Of a stretch of DNA of 64,000 nucleotides, positions 52,938 through 61,810 are shown one piece after another (position 1 is the stretch's first letter; every line of letters starts with the position of its first letter). Below the pieces are notes generated by a model. It had not been told where the DNA came from. It saw only the letters and a list, made by a program, of their open reading frames with translations, and ran no database searches. Origin of the DNA: Candidatus Tectimicrobiota bacterium (lineage in GTDB: Bacteria; Tectomicrobia; Entotheonellia; Entotheonellales; Entotheonellaceae); NCBI GenBank assembly GCA_026005175.1, contig BPKO01000001.1:1059236-1123235 (forward strand), written 5' to 3'. The translations under genes were made by a program, and so were the position numbers.

Positions 52938-53993
52938 ATGACCCAGGACGCCATCCAGGACGTGGATGCCATCGAGTTTTACTTCGACAAGGGGGTCACG
53001 GACGGCCTGCCGGTGGTGCCGCCTACCGAGGAGCGGGTGCAGCGCATGCTGGCCGCCACCTCGCGCGCGCCCGACGAGGTCATCGCGCTGGTGCCGCCCA
53101 ACTACGGGGAGGCCACGGTGGAGAAAATCGCCGTCAACGCGGTGATGGCCGGTTGCAAGCCGGCTTACTTGCCGGTGGTGCTGGCCGGGGTGCAGGCGAT
53201 GTGCGACGAGCGCGTCAACCTGCACGGCGTGCAGGGGACCACCCACACCGCCACGCCGCTGTTTATCGTCAACGGCCCCATTCGCCGCGAGCTGGACATC
53301 AACTGCGGCGCTGGCGTCTTTGGCTCGGGCTGGCGGGCCAACGCCACCATCGGCCGCGCCCTGCGTCTGATCATGGTCAACATCGGCGGCGCCAGGCCAG
53401 GGGAAATCGACAAATCCACCATGGGCCATCCCGGCAAGTACACGTACCTCATCGGCGAGTACGAGGAGGTGAGCCCCTGGGAGCCGCTGCACGTCGAGCA
53501 GGGGTTTGCCCGCGAGCAGAGCACCATCAGCGTCTACTGCTGCGATGCCCCGCAGTGCATCAGCAATCACGGCAGCCGCACGGCGCGGGGAATCCTGCAG
53601 ACCATTGGTGCCAGCATGGCGGTGGGGTGGAGCGACAAGACGTACCTGGCCGACAGCTACCTGGTGGTGATTGGCCCCGAGCATGCCAAGACCATTGCCG
53701 CCGATGGCCTGAGCAAGCAGGACGTCAAGCGGTTCTTGTACGAGACGGTGCGTCGGCCGCTGCGCGAGCTGCTCCCCGGGCCCGACGGCAGCGAGGGGCT
53801 GGCGCGCGAGCGCCTGCCCGGGTGGCTCGACGCCACCCGCGACGAGACGCTGGTGCCCAAGGTGGCCTCGCCCGAGGGCATCATCGTGGTGGTGGCCGGG
53901 GGCACTGCCGGCCGCTTCTCCCTCCACATGTGTGGCTGGGGCAGCGGGGCAGGGGCCAGCCGGCTGGTGACCGTGCCCATCAGCAAGGAGTGA
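52938..53993 (+). CDS. Conserved cysteine-rich protein, partner of the UGSC selenoprotein
   Basis: A 351-residue cytoplasmic protein that I cannot assign to a named enzyme. It opens with TDGLPVVPPTEERVQRML and has glycine-rich segments (LDINCGAGVFGSGWRANATI, VVAGGTAGRFSLHMCGWGSG). Seven cysteines are visible, three of them in ISVYCCDAPQCISNHGS, compatible with metal binding or thiol chemistry. It has a good promoter and a ribosome site inside GGGGAGGAGCC. It ends four bases before the selenoprotein gene, so the two are almost certainly one operon and probably one function, perhaps a redox or reductase complex. Confidence 0.8.
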   Translation: MTQDAIQDVDAIEFYFDKGVTDGLPVVPPTEERVQRMLAATSRAPDEVIALVPPNYGEATVEKIAVNAVMAGCKPAYLPVVLAGVQAMCDERVNLHGVQGTTHTATPLFIVNGPIRRELDINCGAGVFGSGWRANATIGRALRLIMVNIGGARPGEIDKSTMGHPGKYTYLIGEYEEVSPWEPLHVEQGFAREQSTISVYCCDAPQCISNHGSRTARGILQTIGASMAVGWSDKTYLADSYLVVIGPEHAKTIAADGLSKQDVKRFLYETVRRPLRELLPGPDGSEGLARERLPGWLDATRDETLVPKVASPEGIIVVVAGGTAGRFSLHMCGWGSGAGASRLVTVPISKE

Positions 53994-53997
53994 AGCG

Positions 53998-54519
53998 ATG
54001 ACGCGACTTTACGAACCCACGGCGGCACCGCGCGTGGAGGCCAGCCTGGCGCCGCGCGTGGACAGCCTCAATGGCAAAGTGATCGGCCTGCTCGACATCA
54101 GCAAGCCCAAGGGGAATTACTTTCTGGATCGCCTGGCCGAGCGGCTGTGCGCGGAGTTCCAGCCCAAGGCCCTCCTTCGCCGCATGAAGCCGACCTACGC
54201 GCGGCCGGCACCGGAGGAGCTGCGCAAAGAGCTCGCGCAGCAGTGCGACCTCATCATCGAAGCGCTGGCGGATTGAGGGTCGTGCACCACGTGCAGTGTG
54301 CACGACGGCGTGGCTTTTGAAAAGGCAGGAAAACCGGCAGCAGTTTTTGCCACCACCGAGTTTGCCGATGCCGCCCGCGCCCAGGCGGCGGCGCTGGGCC
54401 TGCCGGCCTTCGAGGTCATTCTCGTTGACCATCCCATCCAGCCCCTGACCCAGGAAGAAGTCTACCAGCGCGCCGATGCCGTCTTTGCGCAGCTGGTGGC
54501 CAAGCTCACGCGCCGTTGA
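53998..54519 (+). CDS. UGSC-family selenoprotein (in-frame UGA = selenocysteine)
   Basis: A 173-residue protein whose frame runs through a single TGA at 54274-54276 (residue 93). Around it the translation reads CDLIIEALAD-U-GSCTTCSVHDGV, the defining Sec-Gly-Ser-Cys motif of the UGSC (seleno)protein family. Conserved text continues on both sides (SLNGKVIGLLDISKPKGNYF before; FATTEFADAARAQAAALGLP and VDHPIQPLTQEEVYQRA after), so the TGA is not a true end. A strong hairpin follows immediately. ATG 53998 has AAGGAG. Function unknown; a redox role via the Sec/Cys pair is inferred. Decoding needs SelA, SelB, SelD and tRNA-Sec elsewhere in the genome. Confidence 0.9.
54274..54306 (+). promoter_or_regulatory. 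Probable bacterial SECIS element
   Basis: Directly after the UGA (54274-54276) the arms GTCGTGCAC (54279-54287) and GTGCACGAC (54298-54306) pair perfectly over 9 bp around a 10-base loop. SelB recognises such stem-loops within the coding region just downstream of UGA. The loop is about 11 bases from the UGA, a little closer than in E. coli fdhF. Confidence 0.65.
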
Positions 54520-54742: not shown

Positions 54743-55181
54743 TCAGGGGCGTTCCTCTGGCCAGACCTGCATCCCGGAATGCCGGCCTGCCTGCCACAGC
54801 TGCCGGTCGTAGGTCGCCAGAATCACCGGCAGCGCCATCATTTCGTGCCACAAGACCGCACACGCCAGGTGGACGGCATCATAGCCCCGCAGGTTGTGCT
54901 CCCAGGCGAGGTCGGCGGCCCCGCTGCACGGTGTACTCGGTCACCCGTAATCGGTTAAAGCGCTCCCACTCACGCCGAAAGGCCCTTAAGGCCACGCGCG
55001 CCGCTCTGCCTTCGAGCGCCCGTCTCCGCACGGCCCCGGCAAGCGCCGCTGCCACCTCCGCCATCGTAATGAGCGCCGTTCCCACCGCGGTCGTCGCGCC
55101 AACCATCTCCGCCACCGCCTCAGACCCCGCTTCCTCCACGTAGAGCTTCACGATGACGCTGGCGTCCAGATACACGATCAC
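54743..55181 (-). CDS. vapC: VapC-type PIN-domain toxin (one frame break)
   Basis: Ribonuclease toxin of a type II toxin-antitoxin pair. The acidic PIN residues are Asp in MIVYLDASVIVKLYV, Glu in ITMAEVAAALAG, and Asp residues in RGYDAVHLACAVLW and ILATYDRQLW. An extra G near 54925 breaks the frame between TVQR and AADLAWEHNLRGYD. The repaired protein has about 145 residues. The GTG start overlaps the vapB stop (GTGA). With the break real, the toxin would lose half its active site. Confidence 0.87.
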
Positions 55182-55451
55182 CCGCGGTTCTCCACCAGCA
55201 GCTCCGCCACCGTCTTTTTCCCCCGCACGCGGGCGACGGGCTTTCTGGGCTTCACCTTACCCCGCCCGAGCACCAGGAATCCCAGCCGCGCCAGCATCTC
55301 CATGCGCGCTTGCAGCGGGATGTCCGCCGGAATCACCCGCCCGATGGGCTTCCCCCGCTCTGCGATTTCCACCACCTCCCCTGCCTTCACCCGTCGCAGG
55401 TAGGCGCTTAAGTGCGCTTTAAACTCCCGAATGTTCACACGCACCGCCATT
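55178..55451 (-). CDS. Phd/YefM-family antitoxin (VapB-like)
   Basis: A 90-residue antitoxin. The N-terminal DNA-binding domain reads VNIREFKAHLSAYLRRVKAG and EIAERGKPIGRVIP, typical of the Phd/YefM fold; the C-terminal part (about 60-90; KKTVAELLVENRG) would wrap the toxin. ATG 55451 follows GGAGGAA. The pair is probably autoregulated by binding near the promoter at 55484-55511. Confidence 0.87.
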
Positions 55452-55483
55452 GCTGTTCCTCCAGCGAACTCGTTGTGACTACA

Positions 55484-55511
55484 TCTTAGCGATTCGTGGT
55501 CATGTCTGCAA
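55484..55511 (-). promoter_or_regulatory. Probable promoter of the vapBC operon
   Basis: On the minus strand, TTGCAG (55506-55511) and TAAGAT (55484-55489) are 16 bases apart, about 33 bases upstream of the antitoxin ATG. Confidence 0.55.
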
Positions 55512-55680
55512 TCGGCCCTTGCGCGCCGGAGCGACTCGGCTGCTGGGCCAATCGGGGTCTCCCGATGCAGGCGGCGCGTGACCACGTACAAAGCACGCCC
55601 TGCATCCGGTTGGCACTTGCGCTGGAGGCGCTATGGGCCCTCCAGGGCACACCCTTTGGCAAAGAACCATTGTTGTCTAT

Positions 55681-56814
55681 TTAGCGAAGCTTTCTTATGA
55701 TATTCACCACTGCATCCCAGTCAGGATCTGGGGTCATATGACACCATGACAATCGAAGAGCACTCTGGATAATTATGTCGGGCAATCTCATTGCTTTAAG
55801 AACATGGCTTGGTTCATAGTTGTGTGAGGTGCATGCCGAGCCGTTAGAAATTGCAATGTAGTCTTTAACAGCTACCATCACAGCTTCGGCGTCTATTCCA
55901 GGGAACGCTAGATTGACCACGTGGGGTAACGTGCGTCTTGAATCCCCGTTGATTATAGGATCAAGCGGCGCGAGGGCAGCGAGGGTCCGCTCACGAAAAG
56001 CTTGACAGATTTTTGCGCGATGCCGTGCTTCACGCAGGGCAAGCTCAGCGGCAACCCCAAGGCCAACAATAAGAGGGACAGGCAATGTTCCAGGGCGCAG
56101 ACCACGTTCTTGCCCACCTCCGTATAGTAGCGGTGTCAGCGGGGGGCGACGGAAACCCCGCCGTCGCACAATGAGTGCACCGATGCCTTTGGGGCCGTAA
56201 ATTTTGTGTCCACTGATGCTAATGAGATCAATTCGTGGGTGCTGCAGCGTCTCAATATCCTTGCCAAAACCCTGGGCAGCATCGACATGGAAATAGGCCC
56301 GGATGATTTGCCAAACACTCAGCAATGTCATAAAGAGGCTGTACTACCCCTGTTTCGTTGTTGACATGCATAACCGATACCAGTAATGTATCAGCGCGTA
56401 GAGATTTGCGTATTGCCTCCGGGTCTACCCATCCTCCTGATGTGGGAGGAATGAGGGTGACTGTAAAGCCACGTGCAGCAAGTACGGCAAGAGGTTCGAG
56501 CACTGCTTTGTGCTCAATCTGCGTGCTGACAATATGCTGCCGTTTGGTCGCTTCCCCATGGCTTGCTAGGCCGAGGAGTGCCAAATTATTGCTCTCGGTG
56601 GCGCCACTGGTAAAGATCACCTCGTCGCGTTGCGCCTTGACCACTGCTGCTACTTGGTTCCCCGCGCGTGTTGCACCGCCTGCTTAGCGCGGGCGCCGAA
56701 ATCGTGTGTACGACTCCCAGCGTTACCGAATTCGACGGTCATATACTTCATCACCGCATCCCGCACCCGTGGCTCTAGCGGGGTAGTGGCATTACAGTCC
56801 AAATACACAACCAT
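55681..56814 (-). CDS. dndA: DndA cysteine desulfurase (two frame breaks)
   Basis: PLP enzyme that takes sulfur from cysteine and delivers it to DndC for DNA phosphorothioation. It reads VVYLDCNATTPLEPRVRDAV, FTSGATESNNLALLGLASHG, VSVMHVNNETGVVQP, HVDAAQGFGK, the PLP lysine in ISISGHKIYGPKGIGAL, and the active-site cysteine in AISNGSACTSHNYEPSHVL. Breaks lie near 56675 (one base missing) and 56295 (one extra C). ATG 56814 is at the right distance from GGGAGG. About 377 residues. It is divergent from dndBCDE, the classical arrangement, and its stop lies in lower-GC DNA next to the vapBC genes. Confidence 0.93.
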
Positions 56815-57204
56815 GACCATTCCTCCCTGCACGCCTCACTTCGTGGATCCCGAAGTTCGCGACGAGAGTTTATCAGATTATCCGCAAAGTTTGTGAATTT
56901 TTTGTGGTCTGTTCGCTTTTTTCTTGACATACGGGCGAGAGTATGCTTTCCTGGATGGCCGGAGACGGAGGAACGGGGCGGAGGGGTTCACCCGTATAGT
57001 GGCAGAATCGGTTCGCCGGGGATGTCATCTACGGTAATGTAATTCCTCCAGGGGGCTGGCAATGTGGCAATGGGCGAGCAAATGGCGGGTCATTGATTGA
57101 AGTGCCGAGTTATTTTAATTTTCAGTATGAATGATAACGAATTGATATATTGATTATCTCAATATTGGCAAGTTTATTATAGACGTATCCATAGGAGTGA
57201 ATCC
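56815..57204. other. dndA-dndB divergent control region
   Basis: 390 bases without a gene, AT-rich near both ends. It holds a candidate dndA promoter (56869-56897, minus). On the plus side TATTAT at 57175-57180 with TTGATT at 57150-57155 (19-base spacer) is a weak candidate for dndB. Short TTGA/TCAA inverted motifs at 57142-57165 could be an operator for DndB, a known repressor of its own cluster. Confidence 0.6.
56869..56897 (-). promoter_or_regulatory. Probable dndA promoter
   Basis: On the minus strand, TTCACA (56892-56897) and GATAAA (56869-56874) are separated by 17 bases, about 55 bases upstream of the dndA ATG. Confidence 0.5.
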
Positions 57205-58308
57205 ATGAATGCCGCCTTTGAGTATGTCTTTCCAGCAATACGGGGAGTACAAGCGCGTCGAGAATACTATGTATCGATGTGTCCACTACGTCTTTTGCCT
57301 AAGATTTTCCTATTTAATGAGGAGGAGCTGGTTTCCAGAGTTGCGCGCGCAGCGTACTTTGAACAAGAGTCGTATTCCGGAGATTACTCGCTATATTCTG
57401 GACAACCGTGACACCTATGTTTTCTCTGCAATAACCGCTTCTATTGATGGTGAAATACGATTTGAGCCGCTAATAGATGGATTAGAAGGTCAACGGGTTG
57501 GGCTTTTACATATCCCCATGTCGTCGCAATTCATCATCAACGACGGGCAACACCGTCGCGCTGCCATTGAAATGGCACTTCGTGAAAATCCAGATCTCGC
57601 GGATGAAAGCATTGCGGTTGTCTTTTTCCTCGATGTAGGGACTTGAACGCTGCCAACAGATGTTTGCCGACCTGAACCGCTATGCGGTTCGTCCATCTAA
57701 GTCGTTAGGGGTTCTATATGACCATCGAGACGAACGTGCAAAGCTAGCCAAACTGGTGGTGCTCCGCTCGCCGATGTTTCGCGATGTAGTGGAGATGGAA
57801 AAAAGCACGCTCTCGGCACGATCACGGAAGCTCTTCACCCTTAGTGCTATCTATACGGCAACGTCAGCGCTATTGGCGCATACAGATCATGGCTCATTGG
57901 AAGAGCGAGCACAGCTGGGCCGTGGATTTTTGGGAAGAAGTGGCAAAGCAGTTTCCAGAATGGCAGATGGTACGCAATCGGCAAATGACGGCAGCAGAAG
58001 TGCGTCGCGATTTCATCCATTCCCACGGGATTGCCTTGCAGGCGATCGGTAAGGTAGGGAACGTTCTCATACAGGACAGCGCGACAAACTGGAAGCACCG
58101 CTTGCGGCGCCTCAGAAGCCTTGACTGGTCACGCGCTAATGCCAAGTTATGGGAAGGTCGGGCCATGATTGGCGGTCGCGTGTCCAAGGCTACCCATAAT
58201 GTCATCTTGACTACTAACGTTATCAAAAAGCATCTCCAGCTGTCCCTTTCGCCGGAGGAACAGCGCGTTGAGGACGCTTTTCTGCGAGGAGACTATGTCA
58301 GCACATAA
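57205..58308 (+). CDS. dndB: DndB, DGQHR-domain regulator of phosphorothioation (three frame breaks)
   Basis: Regulator of the Dnd cluster; in studied systems DndB represses the operon and affects the frequency of modification. ATG 57205 (TAGGAG site) gives FEYVFPAIRGVQARREYYVS, then ELRAQRTLNKSRIPEITRYI, the diagnostic FIINDGQHRRAAIEMALREN, FADLNRYAVRPSKSLGVLYD and DFWEEVAKQFPEWQMV. Single extra bases near 57333, 57640 and 57917 cause the breaks; repaired length is about 366 residues. The end overlaps the dndC start by 14 bases. Confidence 0.92.
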
Positions 58309-59844
58309 TGTCCACCACCTGGTTTCTGTCTTCGCCAAAGACGGTTTCAAGATAACGGTAAATCTTCTCCTAGAAGAGATCCAGGAACTCTACTGCGCTG
58401 ATGAGGCTCCTTGGATTGTCGGTTATAGTGGTGGAAAAGATTCTACTGCAGTGCTTCAGCTTGTCTGGCTTGCTCTGTCGACTTTGGAACCACACAAGCG
58501 TACCAAAACGGTGCATGTCATCAGTACTGATACCCTAGTGGAAAATCCCGTCGTAGCTGCCTGGGTCACCCAGTCCCCCTGCAGACCATGCAGCGCACTG
58601 CACAGCGAGATAACATTCCTATTGTGCCCCATCGGCTTACGCCTGACATCACTGACACCTTCTGGGTTAACCTGATCGGCCGTGGCTACCCTGCGCCGCG
58701 ACCTAAGTTCCGCTGGTGCACAGACCGATTGAAGATAAAACCCTCTAATGCATTTATTACCCGTATTGTCCGCGAAAGCGGAGAAGCCATCCTTGTCCTA
58801 GGAACGCGTAAGGCTGAAAGTGTCGCCCGCGCCCGTACCATGGAGCGACTCGAGCGCCACCGTGTGCGCGAGCGGCTCAGCCCTAACGCTAATCTTCCCA
58901 ATTGCCTCGTATATACGCCCATTGAAAACTGGTCGAACGATGACGTATGGCTGTTTCTGATGCAGATTCCTAATCCATGGGGACATAACAACAAGGACCT
59001 GCTCACTATGTACCAGGGAGCTTCTCCAGATGGAGAGTGTCCGCTGGTGGTGGATACTAGTACACCTAGCTGTGGTGACAGCCGATTTGGCTGTTGGGTA
59101 TGTACCCTGGTAGATAAAGATCGATCAATGCACGCTATGATCCAAAATGACGAGGAAAAAGAATGGATGCTTCCATTATTGGAGCTCCGTAATGAACTGG
59201 ATGTGCAAGACGATAGGCACTGGCGTGATTTTCGTCGCATGAGTGGCATCGTACAACTCTTCCACGACCGCCCGATTCCTGGGCCCATACACGCAGGCAG
59301 CGCGTGCTCACTGGCTGCGTCGTGTGCTGGAAGCCCAGCAGTGGGTGCGCACTCACGGACCAGAGCATGTGCGCCAGCTCGAGCTTATTACCCTTGCGGA
59401 GCTGCAAGAAATTCGCCGCATCTGGGTCGTGGAGAAACACGAGCTCGAGGACTTGTTGCCGACTATTTATGAAGAGGTTACTCACGAACCTTATCCAGGA
59501 CCGCGCCTCGATGATAACCTGATCTTCACAGCGGCAGACATGCAACTACTCCGCGAAATCTGCGGTGATGATCAGCTGCATTATGAACTTATCCGAGAGT
59601 TGCTCGATATCGAACGCCGTTACAGGACCATGGCACGTCGTGCAGGGCTCTACGAGGCATTAGAGCAGGGCCCATACGCCGCAGTTTTTATACTGATGCC
59701 GTGGATGCCACCGATCGGGCACGACGTCTTCAGCGAGCACGTGACGCCGCGCAAAGGGGAGAATTGCTTCAGCTCTCATTGCTGCCAGTTATGGAAGGAG
59801 ATGTTGTGCAATCACTACAGAGGACCCGTTATGGTGCTGGATGA
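58295..59844 (+). CDS. dndC: DndC, ATP-pyrophosphatase-type sulfurtransferase (three frame breaks)
   Basis: Iron-sulfur PAPS-reductase-like enzyme that activates and carries sulfur to DNA. The P-loop is WIVGYSGGKDSTAVLQLVW; cluster cysteines appear in SCGDSRFGCWVCTLVDKD; further family text is RPKFRWCTDRLKIKPSNAF and VLGTRKAESVARARTMERL. Breaks near 58572, 59285 and 59672 split the gene; the last lies before IRRSFYTDAVDATDRARRL, and the true stop is TGA 59842-59844. About 515 residues. ATG 58295 follows GAGGAG and overlaps dndB; the end overlaps dndD by 14 bases. Confidence 0.92.
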
Positions 59845-61810
59845 GATAGTGTTGCACAACTTTGGGATTTACCGTGGACGTCAAACGCTCAAACTCACCC
59901 CACCATCACCAGAGAAGTCCATCATACTTATTGGTGGGCTGAATGGTGGGGGGAAGACCACCCTCCTCGATGCATTGCAGCTTGTCTTATATGGGAAATT
60001 TGCGCGCTGCTCTAATCGTGGGTCGCTTGCTTATGACGAATTCTTGCGTCGTTGTGTGCACCGTGCTGTCTCACCTTATGAGGGCGCTGCCCTTGAAGTC
60101 CAGTTCCGTTATCTGCGTGACGGCAAGGAACATACCTACCGCGTTCACCGCTCCTGGGCGCTCAGCGGCACCAGCATGCGCGAGCGCCTCGAGGTCCTAT
60201 ATGATGGGCTGTTTGACCGGGCACTAACTGAAACCTGGCAGGAGCATATCGAAACGTTCATTCCAGTTCGCCTTTCACAGCTTTTCTTTTTTGATGGTGA
60301 GAAGATCGAAGCACTGGCTGATGTTGAGCATGCGGCTCAGCTTCTGACAACCGCGATTCATGCTCTCTTAGGACTTGATCTGGTAGAGCAACTGGACGCT
60401 GATCTGCTTGTACTGGAGCGGCGCAAGCGTACCGAAATGAAAGGAATATCTGAACGTCAGGAAATTGACCATGTTTCTGCTGAGATCGCGCAATTAGATC
60501 ATCAGCGTGAAAATCTTATTACACAACGTGCTGCCTTACAAAATGAGGTTGATCGACGACGAAAACGGCTACACGAAATTGACACACGCTTTCAATTAGA
60601 AGGTGGAGCACTTCTGGAACAAAGGGAAAGGCTCGAACAAGAACGTGCGACATTGTCTCAACGCTTGCACGCCATTGAAGAAGAACTGCGGCAACTCGCC
60701 GCTGGCCCAGCGCCACTTTTATTGCTCTCAGATTTGCTGGAGACAGTGGTCGAGCAGGATCGCCGTGAGGAAGCGGCCAAACAGGCACAAGTCCTTACTA
60801 ATATGTTGGCTGAGCGCGATGCACGACTTCTTGAAGAAGCCCGTATCCATGGAGCACAACCGCCCCTCCTGGAAACACTTATGGTATTTCTTGTGACCGA
60901 TCGCCAGCAGCGAATGGTTGAAGCTGAAGTCGACAAATATTTGAACTTGCATCCCGAGGCTCGTGATCTCCTTCGTACTTTATATGAACATACATTAAAG
61001 GAGGTTGGTGCTCGAGTGAGTCTTGCTTTAGAGGCAAGTGAAAAACTGCGCTCACATCTTGCAGATCTCGATCGCCAGCTTGCTAGCATCCCGGATCGGG
61101 AGGGCCCTTGGCCACACTCATGATTGAGCGTCAAAAGGCTCAAGCACATATGGAGGAAGCACAACGTCAACTCGCCGCTCTTGACCGAGAATTAGAACGT
61201 CTGAACCGTGAACGTGACCAGAAGCACAAACGCTTGATTGCCAAAATTGAAAAAACTGTGGAGACAACATTTGCCCAAGAAGACCTCCTTCGCATTATTC
61301 ATCATGCTCAACGGGTTCGGCGCACTCTGGGACACTTTCGCCAGGCTATGCTAGAGATGCATGTGCGGCGTATTGAACGTCTCATTCTTGAGGGATTTCG
61401 ACATTTACTGCACAAAGAAACTTTAGTACAGGAGCTTACCATTGACCCGCGGCAGTGCACTATAGAGTTGCGCGGGGCCTGATGGCAATGTGCTTCCTCC
61501 AGATCGTCTCTCTGCCGGCGAGCGACAGCTGTTAGCTGTAGCGATGCTTTGGGGGCTCGCACGTGCTACGGGGCGCCCACTCCCGGCGGTCATCGATACG
61601 CCACTTGGTCGACTCGATGCTGCCCATCGTATGCACCTTGTGCAACGCTACTTTCCGCACGCCAGCCATCAGGTGATTTTGCTCTCAACCGATGAGGAAA
61701 TCGACGAGCAATACTACGCCAGTTTACAGCCCTGGATTGGCCACTGCTATTGTTTAGTTTTTGATAAGGCCCGTGATGCCACGGTCATCCAGCCAGGCTA
61801 TTTTTGGTAA
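59831..61810 (+). CDS. dndD: DndD, SMC-like ATPase (two frame breaks)
   Basis: SMC/Rad50-like ATPase thought to open or nick DNA for sulfur insertion. ATG 59831 begins MVLDEIVLHNFGIYRGRQT; Walker A is IGGLNGGGKTTLLDALQLV, followed by VRLSQLFFFDGEKIEALAD, long coiled coils (about residues 190-420), the ABC signature RLSAGERQLLAVAMLWGLA and Walker B LPAVIDTPLGRLDAAHR. Breaks lie near 61107 and 61481 (extra C before TGATGG). The repaired protein has about 659 residues, as expected. Start overlaps the dndC stop. Confidence 0.93.

Follow-up and report, generated by a model that had tools for sequence, protein, structure and literature searches.

An open reading frame that continues through a single internal TGA in the genome of a Candidatus Tectimicrobiota bacterium raises two questions: is this TGA read as selenocysteine (Sec), and what might the product do? 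The gene lies within a stretch of 64,000 nucleotides, hereafter designated as the window (assembly GCA_026005175.1, contig BPKO01000001.1). It was originally predicted, from its letters alone, to encode a member of UGSC, a recognised family of no assigned function (NF041046, PF24696), and this description is accurate. The family was first reported from marine metagenomes in the GOS survey of 2008 (PMC2398784), and no function is assigned to it in the literature searched, though it has been counted among the common selenoproteins since then. To this known family, the present analysis adds a near-obligate partner gene, here designated as P, fusions of the two genes, a GrdB-like Sec region, and operons comprising thioredoxin genes, by which a selenoprotein of no assigned function becomes testable.

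The frame comprises 173 codons (53998-54516) with one internal TGA, and ends at a terminal TGA (54517-54519); its product reads MTRLYEPT...EALAD-U-GSCTTCSVHDG...TRR. The Pfam model PF24696 matches residues 5-171 continuously, on both sides of the internal TGA (E=3e-49; 167.9 bits, cut-off 25), and so does the NCBIfam model NF041046 (E=1.4e-46; 158.2 bits, curated cut-off 125). Because both models match continuously across the TGA, the assignment to UGSC is right, and the gene is, with near certainty, a genuine and ordinary member of the known selenoprotein family. A reading frame of this kind through the TGA is far beyond chance. Along with its scores on both curated models, the protein shares with the family the Sec-Gly-Ser-Cys motif, followed by TTC as originally described (ALAD-U-GSC-TTC), and the alternation of Sec and Cys: alignment of homologues revealed TGA in 27/27 genes of the phylum and Cys in homologues elsewhere. 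The window copy differs from the family at large by a third Cys (UGSCTTC), common to 9 of 27 relatives, and by its occurrence in a genome with seven copies.

The organism was expected to use selenocysteine, and a search for selA, selB, selC and selD bore this out. The window's own assembly (3.99 Mb, 14 contigs, 77% complete) encodes a tRNA-Sec (76.5 bits), SelA and SelB, adjacent to each other about 7 kb from the tRNA-Sec, and SelD, all of them above curated cut-offs. Since the selD gene (L015, G000:C9:120631-121554) carries an in-frame TGA, the selenophosphate synthetase of this genome is probably itself a selenoprotein. Besides the window's gene, six further UGSC genes were identified in the assembly, each with one TGA; the copy on C6 is split into two pieces by a frameshift. 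Four further genomes of the phylum contributed 20 full UGSC genes, all with TGA, giving a set of 27 genes in five genomes, two of them single-contig. The apparent frameshifts in the C6 copy and in the nearby dnd genes (see below), together with the incompleteness of the assembly, would fit a TGA that is a stop codon or a sequencing error, with a pseudogene or a separate ORF downstream. Against this stand the 27 homologues in five assemblies, all with TGA at the same codon and coding sequence on both sides, as well as the covariation of the SECIS and the complete Sec machinery. Given this machinery and the TGA in 7 + 20 UGSC genes, it is very unlikely that 54274 is a sequencing error or a true stop, and the probability of this can be considered negligible.

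Two hairpins can form downstream of the UGA (Table 1). The original prediction pointed to a perfect 9-bp stem starting two bases after the UGA, described as slightly nearer to it than in classical bSECIS elements. This stem does exist, but its role as a SECIS was ruled out. The published bSECIS model (PMC13188914) places the element 16-37 nt from the UGA and asks for a stem of 4-16 bp and a loop of 3-9 nt that has a G within its first two positions. With its 11-nt spacing and a 10-nt loop starting with CA, the 9-bp stem fails on spacing, loop size and loop G, and the original hairpin reading is wrong in detail, whereas the second hairpin, with 6 bp, falls within all these limits. In a gap-free alignment of 24 distinct relatives over 48 bases from the UGA onward, 91.7% of the cells of this second hairpin are paired, with 18 double-change cells (5.4 in shuffles) and a covariation of 0.346 (0.109 in shuffles), a signal that vanishes when the hairpin is slid by 1-3 bases. 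The 9-bp stem is not conserved and shows no excess covariation (65.3% of cells paired versus 65.5% with shuffled partners; covariation 0.060 versus 0.081). The loop of the conserved hairpin starts with G-U in 20 of the 27 genes, and most relatives have an extra A-U pair (54289/54305) that is absent in the window sequence. Using synonymous-codon controls, downstream folding was stronger in the 27 Sec genes than in 77 Cys homologues (mean z -1.13 versus -0.04, p=8e-6). Folding of the window sequence alone was uninformative: the 60-nt fold at the 9-bp stem is not beyond chance (z=-0.25), and the two hairpins are near-equal in energy (probability 0.57 for the conserved one, 0.43 for the other), which accounts for the initial choice of the 9-bp stem. 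Comparison among relatives identifies the conserved hairpin as the SECIS, mutually exclusive with the 9-bp stem, and illustrates how a perfect palindrome lacking conservation can mislead in a single sequence.

Table 1. Features of the P-UGSC locus, with positions counted from the first base of the window.
Feature	Position	Strand	Description
Partner gene P	52938..53993	+	351 aa; without a family in Pfam, NCBIfam or PHROGs; linked or fused to UGSC
Ribosome-binding site AAGGAG	53985..53990	+	Within the last codons of P; 7 nt upstream of the UGSC start codon; read directly
UGSC-family selenoprotein gene	53998..54519	+	173 residues including Sec93; motif UxxCxxC (UGSCTTC); family-model matches
In-frame UGA decoded as selenocysteine	54274..54276	+	TGA in 27/27 phylum genes; Cys in homologues elsewhere; Sec machinery in genome
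9-bp hairpin of the original prediction	54279..54306	+	Stem 54279-54287 / 54298-54306; competes with the conserved hairpin; not conserved
Conserved bSECIS hairpin	54290..54304	+	Stem 54290-54295 / 54299-54304; apical loop GUG 54296-54298; 19 nt after the UGA

The UGSC gene had been recognised at this locus from the outset, but the partner gene adjoining it upstream was overlooked. A gap of 4 nt separates the end of P from the UGSC start codon, and the two genes form a two-gene operon. No homology between UGSC and P was found. All seven UGSC genes in the window's genome have a copy of P next to them, and so, more broadly, does the UGSC gene in 27/27 loci of the phylum (five genomes), in seven of which P is fused to the UGSC C terminus. 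Conversely, 26 of the 28 P genes of the phylum adjoin UGSC; the two others (L179, G001:C1:270687-271643; L180, G002:C1:2482848-2483834) have no UGSC within about 4 kb, and a TlpA/thioredoxin-like gene was observed to follow P at L179. The Cys-form loci of public genomes (Actinomycetota, Burkholderiales) have P on the same strand at a distance of 200 bp or less in 77 of 80 cases, the remainder being one locus at a contig end and two Microbacterium loci without P. The latter (L105, M. lacus SDZm4; L108, Microbacterium sp. BR1) are the only well-flanked UGSC loci without P. The pair also occurs on annotated plasmids of Roseovarius, Arthrobacter, Variovorax and haloarchaea, where P is annotated as a hypothetical protein. 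P is thus a near-obligate partner of UGSC, and the literature searched contained no report of such near-universal linkage in different phyla and on archaeal plasmids. The GOS paper mentions a UGSC/Unknown_1 fusion (PMC2398784), in which a UGSC domain is likewise fused to an unnamed conserved domain; Unknown_1 is probably P. As Pfam, NCBIfam and PHROGs all lack an entry for the P family, current annotation would miss half of the putative enzyme. An internal TGA in the C12 copy of P, considered as a second Sec codon, turned out to be an ordinary stop codon near the alignment end, with no internal stop. The structure model of P (pLDDT 87.7) has no convincing match to a known fold, the best Foldseek hit being a class I fumarase (E 2.6e-3) and Z values reaching 6.5 at most.

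What kind of protein UGSC might be is suggested by its structure model and by a remote sequence match. The model (pLDDT 93.5) predicts an alternating beta/alpha protein in which three beta strands, forming three beta-alpha units, precede the Sec helix, with Sec93 directly before helix 94-109. Its nearest PDB folds are flavodoxin-like or Rossmann-type (Z 9-11, VIA-align), and no thioredoxin-fold chain is found among the 50 PDB matches listed. UGSC is thus predicted to be flavodoxin-like and not clearly thioredoxin-like, which makes the Trx-like fold proposed as likely in 2008 (PMC2398784) less probable. Aligned with the Sec region of GrdB-type proteins of the same phylum, UGSC gave an hhalign P of 3.8e-7, or 2.2e-5 with larger and wider alignments, versus 0.1-0.85 for reversed or shuffled controls. 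This match is a remote one, with an hhalign probability that reaches 93% at best and falls to 64-76% when the alignments are widened; it spans about 100 residues around and after Sec. It pairs Sec, U-G-[ST]-C and E-x-x-G-[IV]-P, as illustrated by a UGSC protein (L070), ...ALAD-UGSCTTC-SVHDGVYFEKAGIPVAV..., and a GrdB protein (L091), ...LVAT-UGSCNRC-GATLAKEIERAGIPVG.... For UGSC, no match to the GrdB model PF07355 was listed at E up to 10; this model covers little of the aligned region because it ends at the Sec position. Searches of PDB sequences with UGSC, P and GrdB/PrdB returned no relatives, hence no solved GrdB for comparison, and neither a first genome-contig scan with the single protein nor a viral-contig scan yielded relatives.

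Based on these similarities, UGSC appears to be distantly related to the Sec domain of GrdB/PrdB-type reductases, which comprise the glycine, sarcosine, betaine and D-proline reductases (PF07355). In both, Sec follows a beta strand, U-G-[ST]-C-x-x-C and E-x-x-G-I-P are present, and a His-Pro occurs further along; both are also encoded in several copies per genome together with a partner subunit, and both show thioredoxin linkage. In contrast to these enzymes, UGSC has neither a PF07355 match nor the GrdB N-terminal part, and P is not GrdE- or PrdA-like, has no pyruvoyl cleavage site and belongs to no Pfam family. P was considered as a pyruvoyl subunit and rejected, its conserved Cys73 being Ala in two relatives (L080/L081). 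Many carriers of the P-UGSC pair are aerobic, unlike the classical users of GrdB. Several GrdB-type (PF07355) proteins of the phylum have a TGA directly after the Pfam match (L087, L091, L082-L084, L086, L092-L098); they include full-length and short PrdB-like forms. The phylum also has one Ser version (L090).

The gene neighbourhoods of the pair are diverse. Cys-form loci are rich in alcohol, aldehyde and short-chain dehydrogenases, amidohydrolases, luciferase-like oxidoreductases, aconitase X, AMP-ligases and a wide variety of uptake systems, and CoA-transferases also occur among P-UGSC neighbours. Within the phylum, a TPP enzyme is found beside orthologues of the window's pair, and other neighbours are a ComA-like phosphosulfolactate synthase, a TRAP binding protein, an enoyl-CoA hydratase and a molybdenum hydroxylase. 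Thioredoxin reductase (TrxB) is encoded near about 10 of the 87 loci, a minority spread over six or seven independent lineages. Gene orders include P-UGSC-CoA transferase-TctC-trxB in Alcaligenaceae, P-UGSC-trxB in Roseovarius and, with thioredoxin (TrxA) also present, trxB-trxA-P-UGSC in Arthrobacter; further cases are Variovorax, Nonomuraea, Phytoactinopolyspora and Pimelobacter. Given approximately 1-2 trxB per genome, this linkage is by our estimate far above chance, which would give less than one such locus, and some of the actinobacterial TrxB neighbours may be the ordinary chromosomal copy. ComA-like genes beside or near P-UGSC (L069, L072, L185, L187) were observed in three groups unrelated to one another, one of them represented by a haloarchaeal plasmid, the loci outside the phylum being in Arthrobacter and Natrinema; they are suggestive of sulfonate-related substrates for some copies. 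Sulfonate metabolism was not adopted as a common theme because the TPP enzyme scores above cut-off with none of the sulfonate models and because other clusters look different.

On balance, we favour the view that the window's pair encodes a two-component GrdB-like enzyme, composed of UGSC and P and recycled by thioredoxin. How it would work is an even call, and substrate binding by P, bond-cleaving chemistry and thioredoxin as the electron donor are what we infer. The UGA is decoded by SelABCD through the covarying hairpin, and the product is predicted to be a flavodoxin-like alpha/beta domain in which U-x-x-C (here UxxCxxC, as in GrdB) starts the helix after the third strand. P would most likely form the substrate site and hold a small molecule, the selenolate of Sec93 attacking a polarised carbon-heteroatom bond that is then cleaved or reduced. 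The resulting Se-substrate adduct could be released by the neighbouring Cys96, and here also by Cys99, and the Se-S bond re-reduced by thioredoxin and thioredoxin reductase. Several divergent P-UGSC pairs per genome might then serve different substrates, as do GrdB paralogues. Cloacibacillus has several substrate-specific GrdB copies, and one GrdB relative has been proposed to cleave a carbon-fluorine bond (PMC10838667). This fluoroacetate reductase, FarB/FarE, shares with the proposed P-UGSC enzyme a Sec protein with a non-pyruvoyl partner and a proposed selenolate attack on a carbon-heteroatom bond; its subunits are direct homologues of GrdB/GrdE, whereas P-UGSC is only remotely related.

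The same loci have been weighed against two other functions, both of which we regard as unlikely. UGSC could have a thioredoxin-like fold and act as a general thiol-disulfide oxidoreductase or antioxidant, with P as an accessory or target protein, as the UxxC motif and the fold suggested in the GOS paper (PMC2398784) would imply, and the Trx/TrxB linkage at some loci would also fit. The predicted structure argues against such a protein, since the Sec helix comes after three beta-alpha units and the listed matches include no thioredoxin-fold chain. Tight linkage to one specific partner and to catabolic and uptake clusters is atypical of a general antioxidant, and several divergent copies per genome also count against this reading. 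Alternatively, Sec or Cys might act as the nucleophile of a lyase, hydratase or hydrolase involving no net electrons, and P might have a distant fumarase- or Toblerone-like core. The structural matches of P to class I fumarate hydratases and cyclic amide hydrolases point in this direction, as do the frequent aconitase X and amidohydrolase neighbours and the aerobes among the carriers; yet none of these matches reaches significance (Foldseek prob about 0.6 at most, Z under 8). Redox recycling is favoured instead by the several operons that include TrxB/TrxA and by the conservation of the second Cys in UxxC, and Sec seldom serves, to our knowledge, in non-redox catalysis.

If the GrdB-like reading is carried beyond this locus, P-UGSC might represent an unrecognised and widespread class of two-component, thioredoxin-dependent reductases that shares an ancestor with GrdB, has acquired P as a new substrate-binding subunit, and comprises many substrate-specific pairs cleaving carbon-heteroatom bonds in catabolism, also aerobically; this extension is put forward tentatively, with less confidence than the reading of the locus itself. 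The pair is found in its Sec form in this phylum, in its Cys form in actinobacteria and proteobacteria, and also in haloarchaea. As a near-obligate module of two components, one with a GrdB-like active site and the other without annotation, P-UGSC merits specialist attention.

A defence role for P-UGSC is not considered likely. Right after the UGSC gene, the window contains a dndABCD DNA-phosphorothioation defence cluster (55681-61123), and a pair encoding a Phd/YefM antitoxin and a PIN-domain toxin lies between the UGSC and dnd genes (54879-55591, minus strand). Since DndA, DndB and DndC are each split over several frames, the dnd cluster is either decayed or affected by indel errors in the assembly.
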